Origin: Massilia sp. H-1 | GTDB taxonomy: Bacteria; Pseudomonadota; Gammaproteobacteria; Burkholderiales; Burkholderiaceae_D | Direction of reading: 5' to 3' | Length of the DNA stretch: 64,000 nucleotides | Assembly (NCBI GenBank): GCA_024703915.1 | Contig: CP087969.1 | Location: forward strand, 1,488,001 to 1,552,000 | In this document: piece after piece, positions 2,469 to 41,958 of the stretch | Numbering within the stretch: the stretch's first letter is position 1 | How the letters are laid out: each line of letters starts with the position of its first letter | Notes under the pieces: model-generated | Database searches by the model: none | Seen by the model: the letters and a program-made list of their open reading frames with translations, nothing else | What the model was told of the DNA's origin: nothing | Position numbers and translations under genes: made by a program

Positions 2469-4626
2469 CTACTTCGGCTGGAACGCCGGGTCGCCGCTCT
2501 GCCACAGGTGGAAGGCGAGCATGTCGGCCAGCATGGCGTTGCGTTGCTGCGTCGTGCTGGTCATGCCGTGTCCTGCCTTGTCGTCCACCCGCAGCAGCAC
2601 CGGATTGTCGCTGGTGCTCGCTGCCTGCAGGCGCGCCGCCATCTTGAACGACATCCAGGGATCGACCCGGTTGTCGTTCATGCCCGTGATGACCATGGTG
2701 GCCGGATACGCGGTGCCGCTCCTGACGTTGTGGTAGCTGCTCATGGCCAGCAGCTGCTTCACGCCCGCCTCGGTCTTGACGTCGCCCATTTCGATCAGGT
2801 GGTTCGGCCCGTTCTGCGAGGCCACGATCATGCGCACCGCATCGAGCAGGCCGACCTGCAGGATCGCGGTGGCGAACAGGTCGGGCCGCTCCGTCATCGC
2901 CCGCCCGGCCGCCACGCCACCCATACTGACTCCGCGTACCGCCAGCTTGGCTTGGCGCCGTGTAGCGCTCCCTCACCAGCATTTCGGCGCAGTCGATCAT
3001 GTCGTGCCAGGTATTGGGCTTGGTCGCGCCGCGCCCGGCCTGGTACCACTCCTCGCCGTAGGCGCCGCTGCCGCGCGGGTTGGCCAGGGCCAGGATCCCG
3101 CCCCGCTCCAGCCATGCCGCCCAGGTCGGCGAAAATTCGGCCGTAATGGTGCTGCCGTAGTAAGCGTAACCTTCCAGGAAGGTCGGATTGCTGCCATCTT
3201 GCTTGACGCTCTTTTTCATCAGGATCGAGATCGGCACTTTGGCGCCGTCGCGCGCCGTGCAGGTCGTCTCGACGGCGACCACCTCGTCATACGGCTGGCC
3301 CTTGTTGCCGATCAGCCCGGCCGAAAAGGCCGCCGCCTGCCCCACCCGCGTGGTCATCAGGTCCAGCGGCGCGGTCCACGGCTCGAGCGTGAAGATCACG
3401 CCCGGCTGCACCGGATCGCTGTCTTCGATGTACACCGAGCCTTGCACCGGCAGGTGCACCTTCTTCGCCTGCCGCGCCAGTGCGCCATGGCGCAGCGCGA
3501 ACAGGTCCGACACGGCGCCGCTGCGCACCACGTAATACAGGCCGTCGCTGCTTGGCGCCGATGTCCTCGATCACGCCGGTCTGCTGCGGCACCGCTTCCA
3601 CCGGCGCCGCCTCCGGGCGCGACAGATCCCAGCGCAAGACGCGGTAGCGCGCGGCGCCGTCGAAGCTGCGGCCATACAGCCACTTGCCGCTGTGGGTGGT
3701 GCGGCGCACCTTGGCCGCCTCGCCGATCACTTCGCGCCACTGCGCGCCCGGTTTGCCGAGCTGCTCGCGCGGCTGCACGTAGATGCGCGGCAGGCCGCCC
3801 ACGCCGTCGGCCAGCATCAGCACCGCATACGGCGACTCCTTGCTCACCGAGACGAACGGCCAGTCGTTCTCGCGCGTCGTCACGCCATGCGCATGATGTC
3901 GTAGCCGAGCAGCGGCTGGTCGTCCTTGCCGTCGCTGCCCACACGCCGGATGATCATCTGGTTCTTGCCATAGGCGCGCGCCGGGTCGCCGCTGCGGGTG
4001 TAAATGAAGCGTTCGCCGTCAGGCATCCAGATCGCCCGCAGCTCGCCCCAGATGCGCGGCACGGGCTCGCCGGTCATGGTCCCGGTCTTCGTATCGAGCA
4101 CGTGGATCGCGCCCAGCTCGGCGTCGGCCACCGACAGCACCAGCGCCACGTATTTCCCATCGGGCGAGACGGCGTAGTTGTTGATCGCGTGGGTCTGACC
4201 GGTGCTGGCCTTCAGCGTGTCCGGATCGAACAGGATGCGGTCGGCCGCCTTACCGGTGCGCACGTACAGCTTGCCCAGTGCATCGGTGGGCTGCTTCTTC
4301 ATGAAGTAGGTGGAACGGCCGACCCGGTTGATGGCGTACACGCGGTCGCTCGCTTTCGCGCTGAGCGCGTCGATGCGTTCCTGCAGCGCGGCGCGGCCGG
4401 GCAGCGCATCGAGCGCGGCGCGCGTGTAACCGCCCTGTGCCCGGGCCCAGGCTTGCACCGCGGGGCTGTCGAGCTGTTCCAGGCCGCGGTAGGGATCGTC
4501 GATGGCAATGCCCTGGTAGGTGTCGGTGACCTTGCTCAGCGGGGTGGCGGGCGGGGCCGCGAAGGCGGGCGCCAGTGCAAACATGGTGATGCTGACAAGA
4601 CAACGCTGCAAGACAGTGGATGGCAT
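2469..4626 (-). CDS. S9A prolyl oligopeptidase family serine peptidase
   Basis: The protein starts with an export signal (APAFA-APPA) and then PYRGLEQLDSP, typical of the prolyl oligopeptidase N-terminus. A beta-propeller region with ISPDG-like repeats (AVSPDGKYVA) follows, then the catalytic hydrolase domain with the serine motif GVSMGG, the Asp region GMNDNRVDP and the His region DKAGHGM. About 715 residues after correction, normal for the family. It would cut short proline-containing peptides, probably in the periplasm. Frames change near 3895, 3550 and 2950; at 3550 and 2950 the written GCTTGGC corrects to GCCGGC. I prefer ATG 4626 because GAGGA lies eight bases upstream; ATG 4641 is in frame. 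Confidence 0.85.
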
Positions 4627-7778: not shown

Positions 7779-7844
7779 GAAACTACAGGGTCAGACCTCA
7801 ATTCTGCAACAAGTTGCAGAATTGAGGTCTGACCCCGTAGTTTC
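7779..7844. repeat. perfect inverted repeat, GGGTCAGACCTC family
   Basis: A 23-base arm (7788-7810) is mirrored exactly by 7813-7835 around a two-base centre, and an outer eight-base pair (7779-7786 with 7837-7844) extends it. It lies between two convergent genes, where a hairpin could end transcription from both sides. The same core (GGGTCAGACCTC) recurs at 37766-37826 and 37971-38020, so this is a dispersed REP-like element rather than a private terminator. Confidence 0.9.
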
Positions 7845-30758: not shown

Positions 30759-31641
30759 ATGAATTTGAAACTGACCGGCCTCGCCCTCGCCTTGTTAGCC
30801 GCTTCACTGCCAGCGATGGCCCATGACGACGAAAACGTTCCACCGCTGCCCCCACTGACCACGCCCGGCACCCACTACGGCGACAGCGTCAGTATCGGCA
30901 ACGGCCGCTACCAGACCTACATCCGCAACACGGCCTACGGCAAGCCGGACGCGGTCGGCGTCGTGTTCTCCAAGCAGACCCTCGACAGCCTGCCGGTCAG
31001 CCCTGTCACCGACGGCAAGACCTGCATGGACAGCAACGGCGACAACACCATCGACCTGCACGAAGAATGCGTGGGCGGCCACTCGCGCACCATGTACTTC
31101 ACGCCCAACCTGACCCAGTTCAAGAGCATCACCATCAACTGGGAACCGCATGGCCACGTGCTTAAGCCGACGTGTATGACAAGCCGCACTTCGACTTCCA
31201 CTTCTACACCATCAGCGACATCGACCGCCTGACCAAGAACCTGATCGGCACTTGCGCTTAGCCTGGTCAACTGCGCCGCCTCGGCCCAGGCGATCAACCC
31301 GATCCCGGCCAAGTACGTGCACCCGGACATGTTCAACACCAACCTGGTGTACGCGCACATGGGCAACCACTACGCGGACGGCAAGAGCCCGGAATTTAAC
31401 GGCGGCAGCTTCACCCACACCTTCATCCTGGGCGCCTTCGACGGCGGCATCACCTTCTACGAGCCGATGCTGACCAAGGAATACCTGCAGAGCGAGCCTG
31501 ACCAGTGCACGCCGATCAAGCAGCTAAGCCGCCTGGCTGAGCACCGGCTGGTACGCGACCAAGTACTGCATCCGCTACAACAAGAACAACAAGCAGTACA
31601 ACGTCTCGCTCGAAGGCTTCAAATACCGCATCGGCAGCTAA
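30759..31641 (+). CDS. secreted protein of unknown function (possibly DUF5602-like)
   Basis: A signal peptide ends PAMA-HDDE. The mature protein has His-rich, metal-binding-like segments (WEPHGHVPADVYDKPHFDFHFY, positions about 130-150, and YAHMGNHYADG) and Cys pairs. Two corrected sites, GCTTAAGC at 31160 and GCTTAGC at 31256, plus GCTAAGC at 31523, join three frames into one protein of about 290 residues. HFDFHFY and MGNHY recall DUF5602-type proteins, but I am unsure. It lies 25 bases ahead of the FAD oxidoreductase gene and may be in its operon. The TAA stop itself sits in an AGCTAAGC context. Confidence 0.6.
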
Positions 31642-31666
31642 GCCCCCCACTTCAAAGGAAAAGACA

Positions 31667-32988
31667 ATGGAACAGTTCGACGTCATCGTCGTGGGCGGCA
31701 GCGTATCGGGCGCCCCCCACCGCTACCCACCTGGCGCGCAAAGGCTACAAGGTCCTGATGGTAGAGAAGGACACCTTCCCGCGCGACACCAACTCCACCC
31801 ACTTCATCTGGCCGCGCGGGATGAGCTACCTGAACCGCCTGGGCGTGGCCGACAAGATCCTGACCCAGACCCCGAGCTTCAAGAAGCTGGAAGTGTCGAT
31901 CGAGGGCATCAGCCTGCACGGCGGCGTGCCGCTGCAGGCCGTGAAAGACCGCTTCGTCAAGCTGCACGGCGACGACCATGGCGTGGTCGACTTCTACAGC
32001 CGGCCCGCGCCGCTTCTTCCTCGACAAGGTGCTGCTCGACGAAGCGCGCCCTCGGGCGTCGACGTGCGTGAAGCGACCACGGTGCAGTCGCTGATCGTCG
32101 AAGACGGCGTGGTGGTCGGCGTGCGCGGCAGCGGCCCGGACGGCGCCATGCTGCAGGCCCGCGCCAAGGTGGTGGTGGGCGCGGACGGACGCATGTCGCA
32201 GTTCATCTAGCCACGTGGCCGCCGAAAAAACCGTGGTGCGCGAAAAATCGACCTTCGCCTACTACGGCTACTTCTCGGGCATCGACAAGCCGGAACTGTG
32301 CATCCACAAGCGCGGCCGCTTCGGCACCGCCATCTTCCCGACCATGGAAGACCGCCACCTGGTGCTGGTCTACGGTCCGACCGCCTGGTGGAGCGACTTC
32401 AGCAAGGATCCGGAAGCGAACTTCCACAAGACCTACGAATTCGTCGCACCGGACGTGGCCGCGGTGGTCGCCAAGGGCAAGCGCGTCGAAGCGTTCAAGG
32501 CCATGGGCCGGATGGTGGCCTTCCACCGCCAGGACCACGGCAAGGGCTGGGTGCTGGTGGGCGACGCCTGCAGCTTCAAGGACCAGTGGACCGCGATGGG
32601 CATCACCCACTCGCTGCGCGACGCCGAACTGGTGACGGGCTATCTGGACCGCGTGCTCAAGGGCGAAATCGGGTTCGACGCCGCCATGGACGAATACAGC
32701 GAAGTGCGCATGGCCGACTACGAAGACTACTGGACCATGGTGTGCGACGGCGCGGAGATGAATCCGTACACGCGCGAACACCTCGAATTCTTCCACGCCA
32801 TTTCGGGCGACCAGGCCAAGGTGGATAAATTCATGGGCCAGGTGGGCGACACGATCAGCCTGAAGGACGCGATCGCGCTGGACGACGCGGCGCCGCGCGC
32901 CCTGCCGGACTTCGTGAAGAACTTCGACGCCGCCGCGCTCGACTACCACCGCAATATCTTCGCAGTCGAAGACAAGGAAGCCGCATAA
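31667..32988 (+). CDS. FAD-dependent oxidoreductase (monooxygenase/halogenase/GGR-like)
   Basis: The N-terminus is an FAD-binding Rossmann motif VIVVGGSVSGA followed by ATHLARKGYKVLMVEKD, and the second FAD motif is VLVGDACSFKDQWTAMGITHSL, as in geranylgeranyl-reductase, flavin halogenase and FAD monooxygenase proteins. DTNSTHFIWPRG is conserved in the 'DTLSTHxL' reductase/monooxygenase group. About 440 residues. An in-frame TAG at 32208 interrupts RMSQFIRHVAAEK, with an extra base, and bases are misplaced near 31725, 32020 and 32040. AAGGA precedes the ATG. It probably hydroxylates or reduces a small molecule made with the next two gene products. Confidence 0.82.
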
Positions 32989-33069
32989 GCCGCTTCGATT
33001 GACTGACCGCTCCCATCGGCCCCGCGCTTGTTTTTCAACGTTTTGCTCACATGTAAAGGAATACTTGCC

Positions 33070-33988
33070 ATGCAAGCGACATTACACCGCAATTCCGGCA
33101 TCAAAATCCCGTCCCAGACCGGCCTGCGCCTGAAGGCGCCCGGCACCTGCGGCGAACTGATGCAAGGCGCAATCGACGAACAGGACTTCCTCGTCAACTG
33201 CCCGGTCAACCTGTTCTCGTACGCGACCGTGCACGAAGGCGACGACGGCCTGCACCTGCACGACCTGCACCGCTACACCAAGATCCGCGACACCATCGCG
33301 CTGGCGGCGCACGAATACGCGTTCCGCCTGTCGCACCAGGTGGCCATTCGCAGCGACATCCCGCGCGGCAAAGGCATGGCGTCCAGCTCGGCCGACATCA
33401 CGGCCGCGCTGGAAGCGGTGTGCCGCAGCGCCGACGTCAAGCTGACCGACGAGATCTTCGCCCGCATCGTCACCGAGATCGAACCGTCGGACTGCGTGCA
33501 CTTTCCCGGTATCGCCCACGTCAACCACCTGACCGGCCAGCTGATCGAATCGATGCTTAGGCGCCAACCGGCATGAACGTGCTGGTGGTGGACTGCGGCG
33601 GCGAGATCGACACCATCGCCTTCGACCGCCAGAAGGCGCGCGGCATCTACCGCAAGAACCAGCCGTATCTGAAAGAAGCGCTGGCCCTGCTCAAGCGCGG
33701 CCTGTACGAAGGCGACCCGCTGGCGGTAGCCGAAGCGGCCACCCGCAGCGCCCAGCTGAACCAGCAAATCCACATCAAGCCGCAGTTCGACGAAATGCTG
33801 CGCACCACGCGCGAACTGGGCGCGCTGGGCGTGAACTGCGCTCACAGCGGCACCGTGCTGGGCGTGATGTATCGCAGCAGCGACAGCTGCGCGACACCCT
33901 GGCACACGACATCACGCGCCGCTTCGGCTCCGGCATCAGCATCGTCGGCGACTTTAATATTATCAGCGGAGGCTGTTATGACTACTGA
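33070..33988 (+). CDS. PduX-like GHMP kinase (L-threonine kinase family)
   Basis: The opening LKAPGTCGELMQGAIDE and the ATP-binding loop PRGKGMASSSADI are hallmarks of the PduX branch of GHMP kinases, which phosphorylate L-threonine for cobalamin side-chain synthesis. A second conserved region is NCAHSGTVLGVMY. About 305 residues. GCTTAGGC at 33555 corrects to GCCGGC, and one base is off near 33885. The last 11 bases overlap the next gene, whose product is a CobD-like PLP enzyme, so kinase and PLP enzyme are translationally coupled. No cobalamin genes are nearby, so the substrate may be a different hydroxy-amino acid. Confidence 0.83.
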
Positions 33989-36056
33989 ACAAAACCTGGA
34001 CATTTTCCAGACCCGTTTCCACAACCCGTCCATCTTCGCGATCCGTTCGCGCACCAAGTTCCAGGGCAAGCTGACCGACTTCTGCGTGCTTAGGCCAATT
34101 CCTACTTCCCGCCGCCCGAGATGCTGGAACTGATCAGCGCCAACATGGGCGACATCCTCAAGTACTACCCTGACTATTCGCCGGTCTACCAGGACTGCAT
34201 CGCCGAACTGTGCGGCACCCCGGCCGAGAACATCGTCGTGGCCAACGGCGTGACCGAGATCATCACCATCCTGTGCCGCGAAAGCAGCGGTCCGATCCTG
34301 ACCTCGGTGCCCACCTTCGGGCGCTGGACCGACCTGCCGCCCGACTTCGACATCCCGGTGCACTTCGTGCAGCGCGTCAAGGAGCGCGACTTCGTGATCG
34401 GCGCCGACGACGTGATCGCGCGTGAAGGAGACCGGCGCGCAGACGGTCGTGATCTGCAATCCGAACAATCCGACCGGCGCCTGGTTCACGGGCGAGGACA
34501 TCGCCAAGCTGATCCGCGAACTGGCGCACATCGAACGCATCATCATCGACGAATCGTTCATCGAGTTTTCCGACCTGACCAGCGCCGAGGCGCTGGCAGT
34601 CGGATCGCACAACACCATCGTGGTCAAGAGCATGGGCAAGTCGCTCGGCTGGCACGGCATCCGCCTCGGCTACGCGGTGGCCAATACCAAGATGGCGCAG
34701 GAACTGCGGGCCAAGGTCCCGTACTGGAACATCAACGGCCTGGCTTAGCTTCGTCCTCAAGAACATCAACAAGTTCCGCGCCCAGTATGCCGAGAGCTTC
34801 AGCAAGGTCATGCAAGACCGCGAATACATGTACCAGCAGCTGCAGAAGGTGCCGGGCCTGAAGACCTATCCGTCCAAGGGCAACTTCCTGTTCAGCGAAC
34901 TGCCGGAAGGCGTCTCGGGCAAGCAGGTGCGCGACATCCTGCTCGAAGAGTACGGTCTGCTGATCCGCGAGTGCAGCAACAAGGCCGGATCGACCGAGCA
35001 GTACCTGCGCAGCGTGGTGCGGGTGCGCGAGGACGCCGACAAGCTGGTGGCCGCGCTGTACGAGGTGCTGGGCGACTACGCGCCAAGCAAAAGCGGCGTG
35101 AACGCGCTCGAAGTCCAGGTCACGCGCCGCAGCTTCGAAGCCGAGGGCATCGACAGCTTCGAGCTGATGCTGCCCGGCGGCGGCGAGCTGCCGCCGTTCC
35201 GGGGGCCGCGCCCACATCGACGTGGTGGCGCCGAACGGCATGGTGCGCCAGTACTCGCTGTGCAACCACCCGGGCGAGCGCCAGCGCTATGTGATCGGCG
35301 TGCTGCGCGACCCCAAATCGCGCGGCGCCTCGCAGGCCATCCACGCGCTGCTGTCCAAGGGCGACGTGGTGCGCATCAGCGCGCCGCGCAACCACTTCGC
35401 GCTGGCCCCGGGTGGGCGCAGCCTGCTGCTGGCGGTCGAGCATCGGCGTCACGCCGCTGATGTGCATGGCGCAGGAACTGCACGAACGGGGATCGGAATT
35501 CGCGCTGCACTACTGCGCCCGTTCGCATTCGCGGGCGGCGTTTCAGGCCGCGCTGACCACGTCCGGCTACGCCGAGCGCGTGCACTTCCACTTCGACGAC
35601 GAAGACCCGGCGCAGCACCTCGATCTAGAGGCGCTGCTGGCGGTGCCGGACCTGGAAACGCACGTCTACGTGTGCGGGCCACTTACTTCATCGAGCTGGT
35701 GAAAACGACGGCGGCCGCGCGGCGGCTGGCGCGCCTCGCACATCCACGTCGAGCATTTCGGGGCCGTGCAGCAGGACTTGCCGGAGCCGGGCAGCTTCGA
35801 CGTCACCATCGCCAGCAGCGGCAAGACGATCCGGATCGATGCCGGTGTCAGCGTGGCCGACGCGCTGGCCAGGCACGGCGTGACGGTGCCGGTATCGTGC
35901 ATGGAAGGCGTGTGCGGCACCTGCATCACCGGTGTGCTCGATGGCATACCGGAGCACCGGGACTGCTACTTCAGCGAGGAGGAGAAGGCGAAGAACGACC
36001 AGTTCATGCCCTGCTGTTCGCGCGCCCGAAGCGCAGCGCTGGTGCTGGACCTGTAG
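33978..36056 (+). CDS. fusion: CobD/HisC-like PLP enzyme + flavin/[2Fe-2S] reductase
   Basis: Residues 1-365 are a class I/II aminotransferase fold like CobD/HisC: SYFPPPEML, KYYPDYSPVY, ICNPNNPTGAWF, IIIDESFIEF and the PLP lysine in KSMGKSLGWHGIRLGY. With no stop and only about ten linking residues (YAPSKSGVNALEV) a phthalate-dioxygenase-reductase module follows: PFRAGAHIDVV, RQYSLCNHPGE (flavin), GGIGVTPLMCMAQEL and VCGP (NAD), then a ferredoxin domain with CMEGVCGTC and a later Cys in MPCCSRA. Both parts lie in one unbroken frame from 34810 to about 35210, so the fusion is not an artefact. Corrected sites: 34088, 34743; other errors near 34430, 35210, 35440 and 35685. GGAGG precedes the ATG. 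Confidence 0.85.
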
Positions 36057-36072
36057 CGGGACCTGTAATGCA

Positions 36073-36098
36073 AAACGCCGCCCGGTCGGGCGGCGTTT
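36073..36098 (+). terminator. Rho-independent terminator after the fusion gene
   Basis: AAACGCCGCCCG (36073-36084) pairs perfectly with CGGGCGGCGTTT (36087-36098) around a two-base loop, 17 bases after the fusion gene's stop. The T run is short (TTT), but the stem is strong. It closes the 30759-36056 gene set. Confidence 0.8.
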
Positions 36099-36220
36099 CA
36101 ACTTGCTTGCCGGGCGCGGATCTGCGCCGAAAACTTAATCCCATGCGACGCCATTCACGTGCAATCAGATCCGCAAGGCCCGGAACGGCGCGTCTGTCAC
36201 GCCGTCCGGACCGGCCAAGC

Positions 36221-36976
36221 TTAGATGGTGGCCATGCCGCCGTCGAACAGCACGTTCTCGCCCATCATGTAGGAGGAATCATCGCTGGCCATGAACAGCA
36301 CGGCCTTGGCCACTTCGTCGGCCTGGCCGAAACGGGTAGCAGGCACTTTGGCCATCAGCTGGGTCGCCCATTCCTGGACGGCTTCTGCTTAAGCAGGCCG
36401 AGTTTGCCGTAGATCGGGGTTTCGATCAGGCCTGGGCTGATTACGTTCACGCGCACGCCGCGTGGCGCAAATTCCGCCGACAGGGTACGTGCCAGCGAGC
36501 GCACGGCAGCTTTGGTGGCAGCGTAGACGCTCATGCTTAAGCCACGCCTTTTTCGATCATCGTGGTCGAGGTCAGTACGACCGACGATGGCTTGTTCAGG
36601 ATCGGCAGCATCGATTGCACGGTGTAGATCACGCCTTTGAAGTTGACGTCGATCTGGTTGTCGATGTTGGAATCGTCCACGTCCGAGAAAGGCATTGGCT
36701 GGGCGATGCTTAGACGTTGGCGAATACCACGTCGAGCTTGCCGAATTCGGCTTTCAGGCGGGTGGCCACGCCATCCATGTCGGATTTTGACGACACATCG
36801 GCACGCAGGGCGATCGCGCCCGCGCCCAGGGTTTTGGCGGCGGCGGCGACGCGGTCGGCATCCTGACCGATGATCGCGACGCGCGCACCTTCTTGCAGGA
36901 ACAGTTTTGCCGTTGCCAGGCCAATACCCGTGGTGCCGCCCGTGATCAGTGCGGTCTTGCCAGTCAGTCTACCCAT
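36221..36976 (-). CDS. SDR-family oxidoreductase
   Basis: A classical short-chain dehydrogenase: NAD(P) motif [15 protein letters not shown] (TGxxxGIG), NAG motif in VFANAGIAQP, and the active site YAATKAA with Ser in [12 protein letters not shown]-terminus [19 protein letters not shown]. About 250 residues. Three motif variants break the frame: 36708 (written GCTTAGAC), 36535 and 36387 (both GCTTAAGC). It is divergent from a TetR gene, which probably represses it. Substrate unknown. Confidence 0.87.
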
Positions 36977-37032
36977 GTCGTTCTCCTAGTTAGCCGCATT
37001 TGCGGCGTGTTGTTGAAATTTGTCACCGGTTC

Positions 37033-37087
37033 TTATTTATGTACCGATAGGTATTTAATATACCGGGTAGTATAATATTAGTCAAAC
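37033..37087. promoter_or_regulatory. AT-rich divergent control region, copy 1 of 2
   Basis: This region between the SDR and TetR starts contains two overlapping dyads, TACCGATAGGTA and TACCGGGTA, spaced by TTTAATA, plus TATAATAT as a possible -10. A closely similar 55-base stretch occurs at 38825-38879. The dyads are good TetR operators by position and symmetry; binding is inference. Confidence 0.65.
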
Positions 37088-37107
37088 AATTTGGATCAGG
37101 AGACGAC

Positions 37108-37746
37108 ATGACGCGCGAACGAGGACGGCCACGCACATTCGACATTGATTTCGCGCTTGACCGCGCGGTAGAAGTTTTTGGAAGCACGGCTTCCAGGATG
37201 CCTCCATGCACGAGCTGACCGAAGCGATGGGCTTGAGCAAACCGAGTCTGTATGCGGCCTTCGGCGACAAGGAAGCGCTGTACCTCAAGACGCTGGAGCG
37301 TTATGTGCAATTGCTGATCGAGCGGCACGCGGCGGCGCTCAATGGCGAGCCGGACGGACGGCGCGCGGTGGAAGGTTTCCTGCGTTCGCTGGCCACCATG
37401 CTGGCCGACCCGGCGCTGCCTGGCGGCTGCTTCATCATCAACGGCACCGCCGACTGCGGCGGCTCGACCATACCACGACGGTGGAACTGGCCTTGCGGGC
37501 CGCCTTGCAAGGCAGTGAAATGATGGTGCTCGAGCGCCTGGTGCGCGCAGCAGCGACGGCGACCTGCCCGAGACGGCGGTACCGGAAGCGCTGGCCGCCA
37601 TGTTCGGCTCCCTGATCGCGGGGCTGGCGGTATTGGCCAAGAGCGGCGCGAGCGAAGCCAAGCTGGGCACCGTGATCGACACCGCCATGGCCGTCTGGCC
37701 CCTGGCCGCGCCCCCGGCCCGCAAGCGCCACCTCAAAGTCGCCTGA
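37108..37746 (+). CDS. TetR-family transcriptional regulator
   Basis: N-terminal helix-turn-helix reading GRPRTFDIDFALDRAVEVF, then GFQDASMHELTEAMGLSKPSLYAAFGDKEALY split around residues 28-60, typical of TetR proteins that control divergent oxidoreductases. The ligand domain has GGCFIINGTADC. Frames change near 37180, 37475 and 37550. Ends in RKRHLKVA. Likely represses the SDR gene and possibly the LuxR gene whose upstream region shares its operator-like sequence. Confidence 0.85.
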
Positions 37747-37765
37747 TCCCCCCAACACCCGCTTC

Positions 37766-37826
37766 AACACCGGGGTCAGACCTCCATTCCGCAATTCTTG
37801 CGAAATGGAGGTCTGACCCCGGTGTT
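37766..37826. repeat. inverted repeat, GGGTCAGACCTC family, copy 2
   Basis: A 23-base arm (37766-37788) pairs exactly with 37804-37826 around a 15-base centre. The central 12 bases match the element at 7788 and the copies at 37971. It begins 20 bases after the TetR stop and can act as its terminator. Confidence 0.9.
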
Positions 37827-37879
37827 TCCTACACGTTAGGCGCAACTGGCGTTCCTGGCCCGGTGCGAGGTAAAAAGTC

Positions 37880-37947
37880 CGTAGGATGATCCCAAAAACG
37901 CGGTGCAGGGATACACCGATGCGCCCGGGAACCACATTCATCCTACG
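37880..37947. repeat. inverted repeat with CGTAGGATGA arms
   Basis: CGTAGGATGA (37880-37889) is mirrored by TCATCCTACG (37938-37947), with a GC-rich inner part (GCGGTGCAGGGA). It is unlike the flanking GGGTCAGACCTC elements and resembles another common class of intergenic palindromes. No gene is present between 37747 and 38022. Confidence 0.75.
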
Positions 37948-37970
37948 CAAAGCAAAAACCCCGATGTTCT

Positions 37971-38020
37971 GAGGTCTGACCCCGATACTGAAACTATTTC
38001 AGAATGGAGGTCTGACCCCG
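37971..38020. repeat. direct pair of GAGGTCTGACCCCG around a small hairpin
   Basis: GAGGTCTGACCCCG occurs at 37971-37984 and again, same direction, at 38007-38020, with CTGAAACTATTTCAG forming a small dyad between. It is the third location of the GGGTCAGACCTC family and ends three bases from the LuxR stop. Confidence 0.85.
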
Positions 38021-38022
38021 GT

Positions 38023-38757
38023 TCAGACTTCGATCAGGCCGAAGGAGATGGCTTTGGCGACGGCGTGCCCGCGTCGAGGCGTTCAGCTTGGCAAGCAGGT
38101 TGCTCACGTGGATCTTGACCGTCCACGAGCTGATCCCCAGGATGCTCGCCATTTCCGAATTCGACTTGCCTCCGCATATCCACTTCAGCACTTCCTGCTC
38201 GCGCTGGGTGAGGATCTTTTCGGCCGCTTGTGGCCGAAATCTTCGACATGCGTGAGCGCGTAATGCAGATGCGGCACCAGCACTTGCAGCAGGAAGGCTT
38301 CGCGCTTGGTCCAGCAATCGACCCCGCCAAAGGCGAAGTAGCAGGCGTGCTCCTGGTTCAGGTTCATCACGCCGTGCACGGCCAGGTTGCGGATGCCGAA
38401 CTTGGTGCACTTGCTTTGCCAGGCCCGGTCCACCGGCTGCACCAGCGAGGAATCGGTGTCGATGTACACGGGACTGCGCACTTCAACCCAGCGCCGCAGG
38501 CCGGGACAGGTCGCGAGCTTTTCTTCGGTGATCAAGCCGCTCAGGTAGGCGGCCGGGAAGGTCAGGTTCATCGATTCCACGATCCGCAGGTCGGCCATGC
38601 GCACCGTCCCGCAGGCGAACATCGCGTGCGGCAGCACCGCCTGCAAACGCGGATGCACGTCGCTGCGGAAGTCGTCCAGATTGCTGACGTCGTGACACGC
38701 CCTGATGAAGGAGGCGAGCGCAAACGTGGCGTCGGTGCCTAGGCTGGGCATGGTCAT
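38023..38757 (-). CDS. LuxR-family regulator (possibly EpsA-like)
   Basis: The C-terminal GerE/LuxR helix-turn-helix is clear: LTQREQEVLKWICGGKSNSEMASILGIS spans the key part, followed by TVKIHVSNLLAKLN. The N-terminal 160 residues (FIRACHDVSNLDDFRS, YFAFGGVDCWTKREAFLLQVLVPHLHYAL) lack an obvious autoinducer domain and recall the EpsA-type regulators; that is a weak call. Corrected near 38240 and 38070, it ends AVAKAISFGLIEV. The control region upstream duplicates that of the SDR/TetR pair. Confidence 0.78.
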
Positions 38758-38824
38758 GGCGTCGGAAAATTCAGGATAGGCGTATGGCTCATGTCTGTCG
38801 TCCCCGCTCAACACCGGTGGACGA

Positions 38825-38879
38825 TTATTTATGTACCGAATGTTATTTAATGTACCGCCAAGTACGAAATTAGTCAACA
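38825..38879. promoter_or_regulatory. AT-rich control region, copy 2 of 2
   Basis: It matches 37033-37087 over its whole length: the first 15 bases (TTATTTATGTACCGA) are identical, as are ATTTAAT, TACCG and TTAGTCAA at the same spacing. It lies 68 bases upstream of the LuxR start. No gene reads rightward from it, unlike copy 1. Confidence 0.7.
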
Positions 38880-39233
38880 CTCTTCCTTCCGATTCGTTTT
38901 CGCGGACGATCCGCGGACTAGGTTTGGGGGGTGGAGCTGGCGATGCCGCCCGTGCTGGCGCGGCGTGGTGGGCTGGCCATCTGTCTGGAACCGTCAATAT
39001 CGCATTGCACAAATGTAAAAGGAATGCACAGAATCGGGTCATTGCAGGCATACAGTCACTTTGTCGACGCCTGAGGCCGCTTCCGGCCCGGGGCGGGCCC
39101 CGTTGCGGCGACGTATCGGCGCCACGAAACCCAAAGTCACCCGCGCTTTTTTTACCAGCTGTATTTACAGCTTGTAAATATTTAGAAAATGACACTACAA
39201 TCTGTTAAATCAAGGCACAGATAGCGACCGCTT
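38880..39233. other. intergenic region without a gene; palindrome before mocR
   Basis: No convincing coding frame is present in these 354 bases. Near the right end TATTTACA (39162-39169) is mirrored by TGTAAATA (39173-39180) around GCT, followed by TACAAT as a possible -10 about 35 bases before the MocR start. The palindrome is a candidate operator for the MocR gene. Confidence 0.55.

Positions 39234-41958
<2,725 letters not shown>

Follow-up and report, generated by a model that had tools for sequence, protein, structure and literature searches.

A promoter-operator element present twice at a Massilia locus suggests joint control of SDR, tetR and LuxR-type genes by a CifR-like TetR protein

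The window analyzed in the present study, a 64,000-nucleotide stretch of the Massilia sp. H-1 genome (G000:C1:1488001-1552000; a single contig of 5,836,689 bases with a listed completeness of 48.22%), carries closely similar 55-bp control regions in two places. One copy lies between the divergent genes for an SDR family oxidoreductase and a TetR regulator, whose start codons are 131 bp apart, and the other lies upstream of a LuxR-type regulator gene. Why the same control region should stand before both is the question raised by this locus. The original prediction offered two answers, namely that the TetR protein also controls the LuxR gene, or that duplication of the control region accompanied the formation of the island. 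These answers are compatible, and the sequence evidence supports both. The genes and the two copies are as follows.

36221-36976, minus strand: SDR family oxidoreductase gene, frameshifted in the assembly (intact orthologue L031:6040-6792 matches adh_short_C2)
37033-37087, minus strand: copy 1 of the promoter-operator element, SDR/tetR intergenic region (matched by profile models R1 and R2)
37108-37746, plus strand: tetR gene, CifR-like, frameshifted in the assembly (intact orthologue L031:6917-7570)
38023-38757, minus strand: LuxR-type regulator gene, frameshifted in the assembly (Autoind_bind and GerE in the intact orthologue; end placed by eye)
38825-38879, minus strand: copy 2 of the promoter-operator element, upstream of the LuxR-type gene (copy comparison; models R1 and R2)
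39234-40742, plus strand: GntR/MocR-type regulator gene with a broken frame; first rightward gene beyond copy 2

The SDR, TetR and LuxR frames of the assembly are broken by small indels, likely through assembly error, and intact orthologues were therefore used for protein naming. Many small frame-breaking indels occur across the window, where the word GCTTAAG is found 16 times against 2.1 expected from base composition. Compared with the Duganella orthologue, the SDR gene has three 2-base insertions, located on GCTTAAGC or TCTAAGC-like words. Given the GCTTAAG excess, the insertions on the motif and the 48% completeness, the indels look like systematic base-calling error rather than real gene decay. 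Between the convergent tetR and luxR ends (37771-38021) lie short inverted and direct repeats of the forms GGTCTGACCCCG / GGTCAGACC; repeats of this form recur at 4192 and 7789-7837 and possibly belong to a REP-like family.

The coordinates and shared words originally given for the two copies proved correct. Copy 1 and copy 2 are identical at 43/55 positions without gaps, and registers 1-3 bp off yield only 13-19 identities. The best other position in the window reaches 27/55 (28 in an opposite-strand alignment over copy 2 itself), and dinucleotide shuffling of the copy-2 region never attained 43 identities in 20,000 rounds (maximum 31, best register taken). Genome-wide, the 14-base word TATTTATGTACCGA occurs without mismatches only at copies 1 and 2; with up to two mismatches it has 11 sites, fewer than the 15 of the reversed control, and its loose matches are thus at chance level. 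The pattern TACCGNNNGNTATTTAATNTACCG, allowing up to three mismatches, recovers copies 1 and 2 exactly plus a single 3-mismatch site (control, 0), and a profile model lists only the two copies at E <= 1. Many copies unrelated to promoters, which would have counted against the prediction, did not appear in this genome-wide search: no third copy was found in 5.84 Mb by word, pattern or profile. A mobile or genome-wide repeat is ruled out by this copy number. Recent duplication of a larger segment is likewise ruled out, since the 40-bp flanks on either side do not align in register and both copies are also found, with diverged sequence, in another genus. A search for structured RNA (Rfam at the gathering threshold, 36000-40000) returned zero matches.

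Judged by its sequence, the 55-bp element combines a leftward promoter with candidate operators and is aimed at the SDR gene in copy 1 and at the LuxR-type gene in copy 2, a character that the original prediction had missed. Promoter scanning places sigma-70-type promoters on the minus strand at the same position in both copies (TTGACT-17-TATATT, 37085-37057; TTGACT-17-TACATT, 38877-38849). The 2.4 kb from 36900 to 39300 contain three promoter-like sites against 0.6 expected, the third (39172-39201) lying near the GntR/MocR-type gene. The TACC/GGTA dyads noted earlier were confirmed: the downstream one reads TACC-N4-GGTA in copy 1 and, in copy 2, differs from this by a single base of the TACC half. 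Each copy holds two dyads related to GTACC-N4-GGTAC, with centers 19 bp apart (hand count). The elements within the two copies are as follows.

37080-37085, minus strand: -35 TTGACT of the leftward SDR promoter (promoter scan)
37057-37062, minus strand: -10 TATATT of the SDR promoter, spacer 17 (promoter scan)
37060-37073, no strand: dyad O1 of copy 1, ATACTACCCGGTAT, in the spacer and reaching into the -10; proposed TetR site
37041-37054, no strand: dyad O2 of copy 1, ATACCTATCGGTAC, directly downstream of the -10; proposed TetR site
37071-37076, plus strand: TATAAT, possible rightward tetR -10 in copy 1 (by eye)
38872-38877, minus strand: -35 TTGACT of the leftward luxR promoter (promoter scan)
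38849-38854, minus strand: -10 TACATT of the luxR promoter, spacer 17 (promoter scan)
38852-38865, no strand: dyad O1 of copy 2, GTACTTGGCGGTAC; proposed TetR site
38833-38846, no strand: dyad O2 of copy 2, ATAACATTCGGTAC, with one mismatch to TACC in the left arm; proposed TetR site

Because the element consists of a leftward promoter and operators, copy 2 points at the LuxR gene and needs no rightward gene. The statement that copy 2 has no rightward gene holds for the immediate neighborhood, but not beyond it: the GntR/MocR-type gene begins 355 bp to the right, has its own promoter-like sequence and is probably outside the TetR/SDR/LuxR circuit. In both Duganella relatives, the tested right-hand neighbor of copy 2 is a long gene running leftward, cobN-like by our own reading of its translation, so that a rightward target of copy 2 is not conserved as far as tested. 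Copy 2 was also considered as luxR coding sequence, since no stop codon interrupts the leftward frame across it in any of the three species; but copy 1 likewise has an open frame (ORF 37023-37736), and the EpsA profile match begins approximately 5 residues after the ATG at 38757, which is conserved with the Duganella orthologues. On the strength of this EpsA boundary, copy 2 is treated here as a probable promoter and leader, not as coding sequence.

Comparison across 392 sampled genomes of the family shows how the element is distributed. The TetR search gave 23 genomes at E <= 1e-40, in eight of which the relative is close (57-100% identity to the query) and adjoins an SDR gene; all eight of these loci carry the element in the SDR/tetR intergenic region (44-55/55 against copy 1). 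Within 17 genomes of the genus, a 15-base word with one mismatch allowed was found in two others, G007 and G015, both times at the SDR/tetR region. A LuxR gene follows tetR in three genomes, namely the window genome, Duganella sp. CF458 (G229) and Duganella sp. Root1480D1 (G183). The LuxR search itself, at E <= 1e-20, retrieved nine family genomes: the window's own, the two Duganella genomes at 63% identity and six at 30-37%. A scan with two peptide patterns returned only the two Duganella loci. Among 399 sampled genomes of the order, the only LuxR match at E <= 1e-40 was the window's own, the two Duganella genomes, which would have matched, lying outside that sample. On plasmids, eight records matched LuxR at E <= 1e-10, none with at least 60% identity.

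Copy 2 stands upstream of luxR in 3/3 loci with a LuxR orthologue and is absent from 4/4 LuxR-less SDR-tetR loci with visible flanks (G282, G015, G007 and G031), in whose flanks no LuxR match was found; G014, where the contig edge lies beyond tetR, was left out of this tally. An M28-peptidase-like gene (own reading of the translation) occupies the LuxR slot in G282. Among the genomes seen, copy 2 is found only together with the LuxR gene, although the three genomes amount to two independent lineages only, the two Duganella strains being near relatives (copy 1 identical at 55/55, LuxR 98%). This pattern gives sequence support to the proposal that TetR also controls the LuxR gene.

The promoter words are among the most stable parts of the element. 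TTGAC is invariant in 11/11 elements, and a 17-base spacer with TA(T/C)ATT is present in the 10 of 11 that were tabulated, the one left out (copy 1 of Root1480D1) being identical to copy 1 of CF458 over the 55 bp. In all 10 tabulated elements, O1 and O2 either overlap the -10 or lie next to it. The dyads are imperfect when scored against GTACCGATCGGTAC: in the window, copy 1 has 8/14 at O1 and 12/14 at O2, and copy 2 has 10/14 at each. In copy 2 of CF458, O1 scores 8/14, with its GGTA half lost, and O2 scores 12/14. The TCGGTAC half of O2 is kept in all three copy-2 sequences. By eye, the candidate tetR -10 of copy 1 lacks a good -35, and it is absent from the promoter-scan list; at its position, copy 2 has TACGAA in the window and TATAAA in CF458 (by eye), so that loss of this -10 in copy 2 is not general. 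Overall, copy 2 is conserved between the lineages at 36-37/55, far below the 52/55 of copy 1. However, the positions kept between the copies 2 of the window and CF458 are concentrated at sites invariant in the copy 1 of five LuxR-less loci (28/36, vs 8/19 elsewhere; one-sided Fisher p 0.0099).

Two profile models extend this comparison. Model R1, built from 10 elements, found 11 matches of 55-67 bits in the 392 family genomes, all at SDR/tetR or luxR, a result that is partly circular as 10 of the 11 were its training sequences. Next came 13 weak matches (18.0-23.1 bits), each in a different further genome; the 21 genomes matched by R1 include none of the six whose only LuxR relative is distant (30-37%). 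Model R2, built from five loci for which no LuxR is known, served as a held-out test in eight genomes. It recovered copy 2 in the window genome (E 4.0e-8), Root1480D1 (2.4e-7) and CF458 (2.6e-7), and copy 1 in 8/8 genomes, five of these being its own training sequences. Beyond copies 1 and 2, nothing in the eight genomes fell below E 0.01; ten further matches ranged from E 0.0126 to 0.73, three of them copy 1 read on the opposite strand. In 74 genomes from the genus that includes CF458, R2 matched CF458, Root1480D1 and G282 strongly, and G398, G213 and G308 at E 4.8e-5 to 7.3e-4. The matches in G213 and G308, the two of these three that were inspected, belong to an unrelated TetR system, so such dyads are not unique to the TetR of the present locus. 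In that Duganella-genus system (L099, L094, L102, L074 and L077, around base 1501), two TACCGATCGGTA-like dyads with 19-bp center spacing (hand count) precede a SnoaL/DUF1348-like gene (own reading), followed by a TetR gene with a LGKGSIYHFFPGGKDE-like helix region.

The regulator itself belongs to the TetR family. The intact orthologue matches TetR_N (PF00440) at 42.9 bits against a cut-off of 24 and also contains TetR_C_13, and the window's intact TetR piece is 84% identical to it. By sequence, its closest solved chain in the PDB is CifR of Pseudomonas aeruginosa (6nsn, E 3.6e-32); BdcR/BdcA of E. coli was an initial candidate, but this search pointed to CifR instead. Passages of PMC8244358 describe CifR as a repressor of the cif operon that is released by certain epoxides and is encoded divergently from its target operon, and the title of a reference cited there indicates repression through two binding sites. 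Passages of PMC9736018 concern another TetR, PA3973. The window's TetR resembles CifR in its divergent arrangement as well as in a PGGC cysteine, which is invariant in 8/8 orthologues and whose aligned position holds Cys in 6nsn and Ser in 6nsm; this cysteine is a putative ligand sensor. Unlike CifR, whose target is the cif/morB/MFS operon, the present protein would act on an SDR gene and, presumably, a LuxR gene. A divergent cif epoxide hydrolase operon is absent, the divergent gene being an SDR oxidoreductase in 8/8 loci. By analogy, the ligand may be similar to the epoxides of CifR. The arrangement also agrees with the ‘200 bp rule’ in the consulted part of PMC3511530, according to which a divergent neighbor closer than 200 bp is usually under the control of the TetR family regulator: here tetR is divergent from an oxidoreductase gene at 131 bp. 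What differs from the TetR/enzyme pairs described in that part is a second operator copy before a convergent third gene, that for the LuxR-type regulator.

Operators of CifR-like paralogues were compared in 22 loci, in 11 of which the TetR motif could be located, six of them belonging to this clade. TACC-N4-GGTA occurs in 5/6 clade loci, the sixth (L040) having one changed base, and in 0/5 paralogues, of which L054 is uninformative because its start codon was placed too far upstream. The other four paralogues (L052, L053, L056 and L058) carry CGATCGCTATG at the start codon (by eye). Their recognition helix region reads PPSLYAAFG, whereas that of the present clade, with TACC-N4-GGTA, reads KPSLYAAFG. 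The pairing of PPSLY with CGATCGCTATG and of KPSLY with TACC-N4-GGTA is suggestive only, and possibly reflects a specificity switch.

The two presumed target proteins are a dehydrogenase-like enzyme and a second regulator. The intact SDR orthologue matches adh_short_C2 at 200.7 bits and adh_short at 159.4 bits, and its closest solved relatives are the SDR alcohol/carbonyl dehydrogenases 4bmn (E 2.8e-61), 4bms and 4i5d. We take 4bmn to be the Ralstonia enzyme RasADH. The intact LuxR orthologue matches GerE at 62.6 bits and, marginally, Autoind_bind (24.4 bits, and 25.9 bits for the window piece, against a cut-off of 23), in the domain order of EpsA and other Autoind_bind-GerE regulators. Its best NCBIfam match is EpsA (TIGR03020), but the 124 bits obtained are under the curated cut-off of 170; by sequence, the protein is EpsA-like, short of membership in the EpsA family.

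The gene order of the surrounding region bears on the age of copy 2. To the left of the SDR gene lies a five-gene block (30867-36056; L031:699-5971) encoding an unnamed protein with no Pfam match, a FAD monooxygenase, a GHMP kinase (PduX-like by our own reading), a PLP aminotransferase (CobD-like, below cut-off) and a ferredoxin reductase, which may form a small biosynthetic or catabolic cluster. The eight genes from approximately 30867 to LuxR, that is, this block with SDR, TetR and LuxR, have the same order in CF458, and the last six of the eight, tested in Root1480D1, do so there as well. Protein identity of the block with CF458 is ∼57-91% per aligned piece. The kinase, aminotransferase and reductase are absent at E <= 1e-6 from the fetched flanks of G282, G015, G007 and G031. 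The order shared with both Duganella strains implies that the duplication is older than the window genome and, together with the absence of the block genes from the LuxR-less flanks, that copy 2 belongs to a block inherited or exchanged as a unit. The second option of the original prediction, duplication of the control region with the island, is supported at this level, copy 2 lying within a gene block conserved in Duganella.

The two copies, their promoter match, dyads, conservation and co-occurrence with LuxR are features of the sequence, from which we infer a circuit of binding, repression, ligand type and LuxR targets. The reading we prefer, with a probability of roughly 0.82, is that the CifR-like TetR represses three genes through the two copies, namely those for SDR, for LuxR and for itself, and that copy 2 is a long-standing duplicate retained alongside LuxR. 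Bound at O1 and O2 of both copies, TetR dimers would block RNA polymerase; occupancy of copy 1 would repress the SDR gene and tetR itself, and occupancy of copy 2 the gene for the LuxR-type regulator. A ligand, plausibly a reactive (electrophilic) metabolite sensed at the conserved cysteine, would release TetR, so that synthesis of the SDR enzyme would be coupled to that of a second-tier LuxR regulator. The control-region duplication that gave rise to copy 2 would predate the separation of the window and Duganella lineages, or their exchange of the block.

The lower conservation of copy 2 between lineages, and the departure of one dyad per copy from the copy-1 form, would also be expected if copy 2 were a leftover of duplication that has lost TetR binding, with luxR expressed from the surviving promoter. 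This is improbable, as the retained dyad halves speak against a dead duplicate: the kept positions are enriched at sites invariant in copy 1, including the TCGGTAC half of O2 that a promoter alone does not need, and in each copy 2 one dyad scores at least as high as its copy-1 counterpart. A still smaller chance attaches to a different TetR with the same half-sites binding one or both copies, for instance the SnoaL/DUF1348-linked TetR of Duganella, on whose operator the weak model matches in that genus fall, with half-site and spacing alike. A search made for this SnoaL/DUF1348-linked protein alone detected it at E <= 1e-30 in 3/8 genomes and not in the window genome, its three genus mates or G031, whereas the element is present in all eight; not being found in the window genome, it does not explain the element there.

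That only a sigma-70 promoter is shared, by descent or convergence, with incidental dyads, is the most remote of these explanations. The -35 and -10 words are indeed among the most invariant, but TCGGTAC and TA words downstream of the -10 are conserved outside any promoter consensus, the dyads keep a fixed spacing, and some CifR-like paralogues of the family have dyads of similar form upstream (by eye). Joint repression by the CifR-like TetR remains the preferred reading.

This kind of circuit is itself ordinary; a limited literature search found no paper describing the TetR/SDR/LuxR arrangement. More tentatively, and with considerable doubt, a TetR sensing a reactive metabolite might gate both a metabolite-handling enzyme and a LuxR regulator that relays chemical stress to further genes. 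If such a relay exists, the LuxR targets would perhaps include the co-traveling FAD monooxygenase/GHMP kinase/PLP enzyme/ferredoxin reductase block, or a population-level response. The locus offers a testable case in which a local repressor probably gained a second target by the copying of a whole promoter-operator before a neighboring regulator gene, with the relatives that lack both the LuxR gene and copy 2 as natural controls. In addition, it supplies a candidate operator that CifR-like TetR proteins of this bacterial family may use, and it possibly connects an oxidoreductase with a LuxR regulator.
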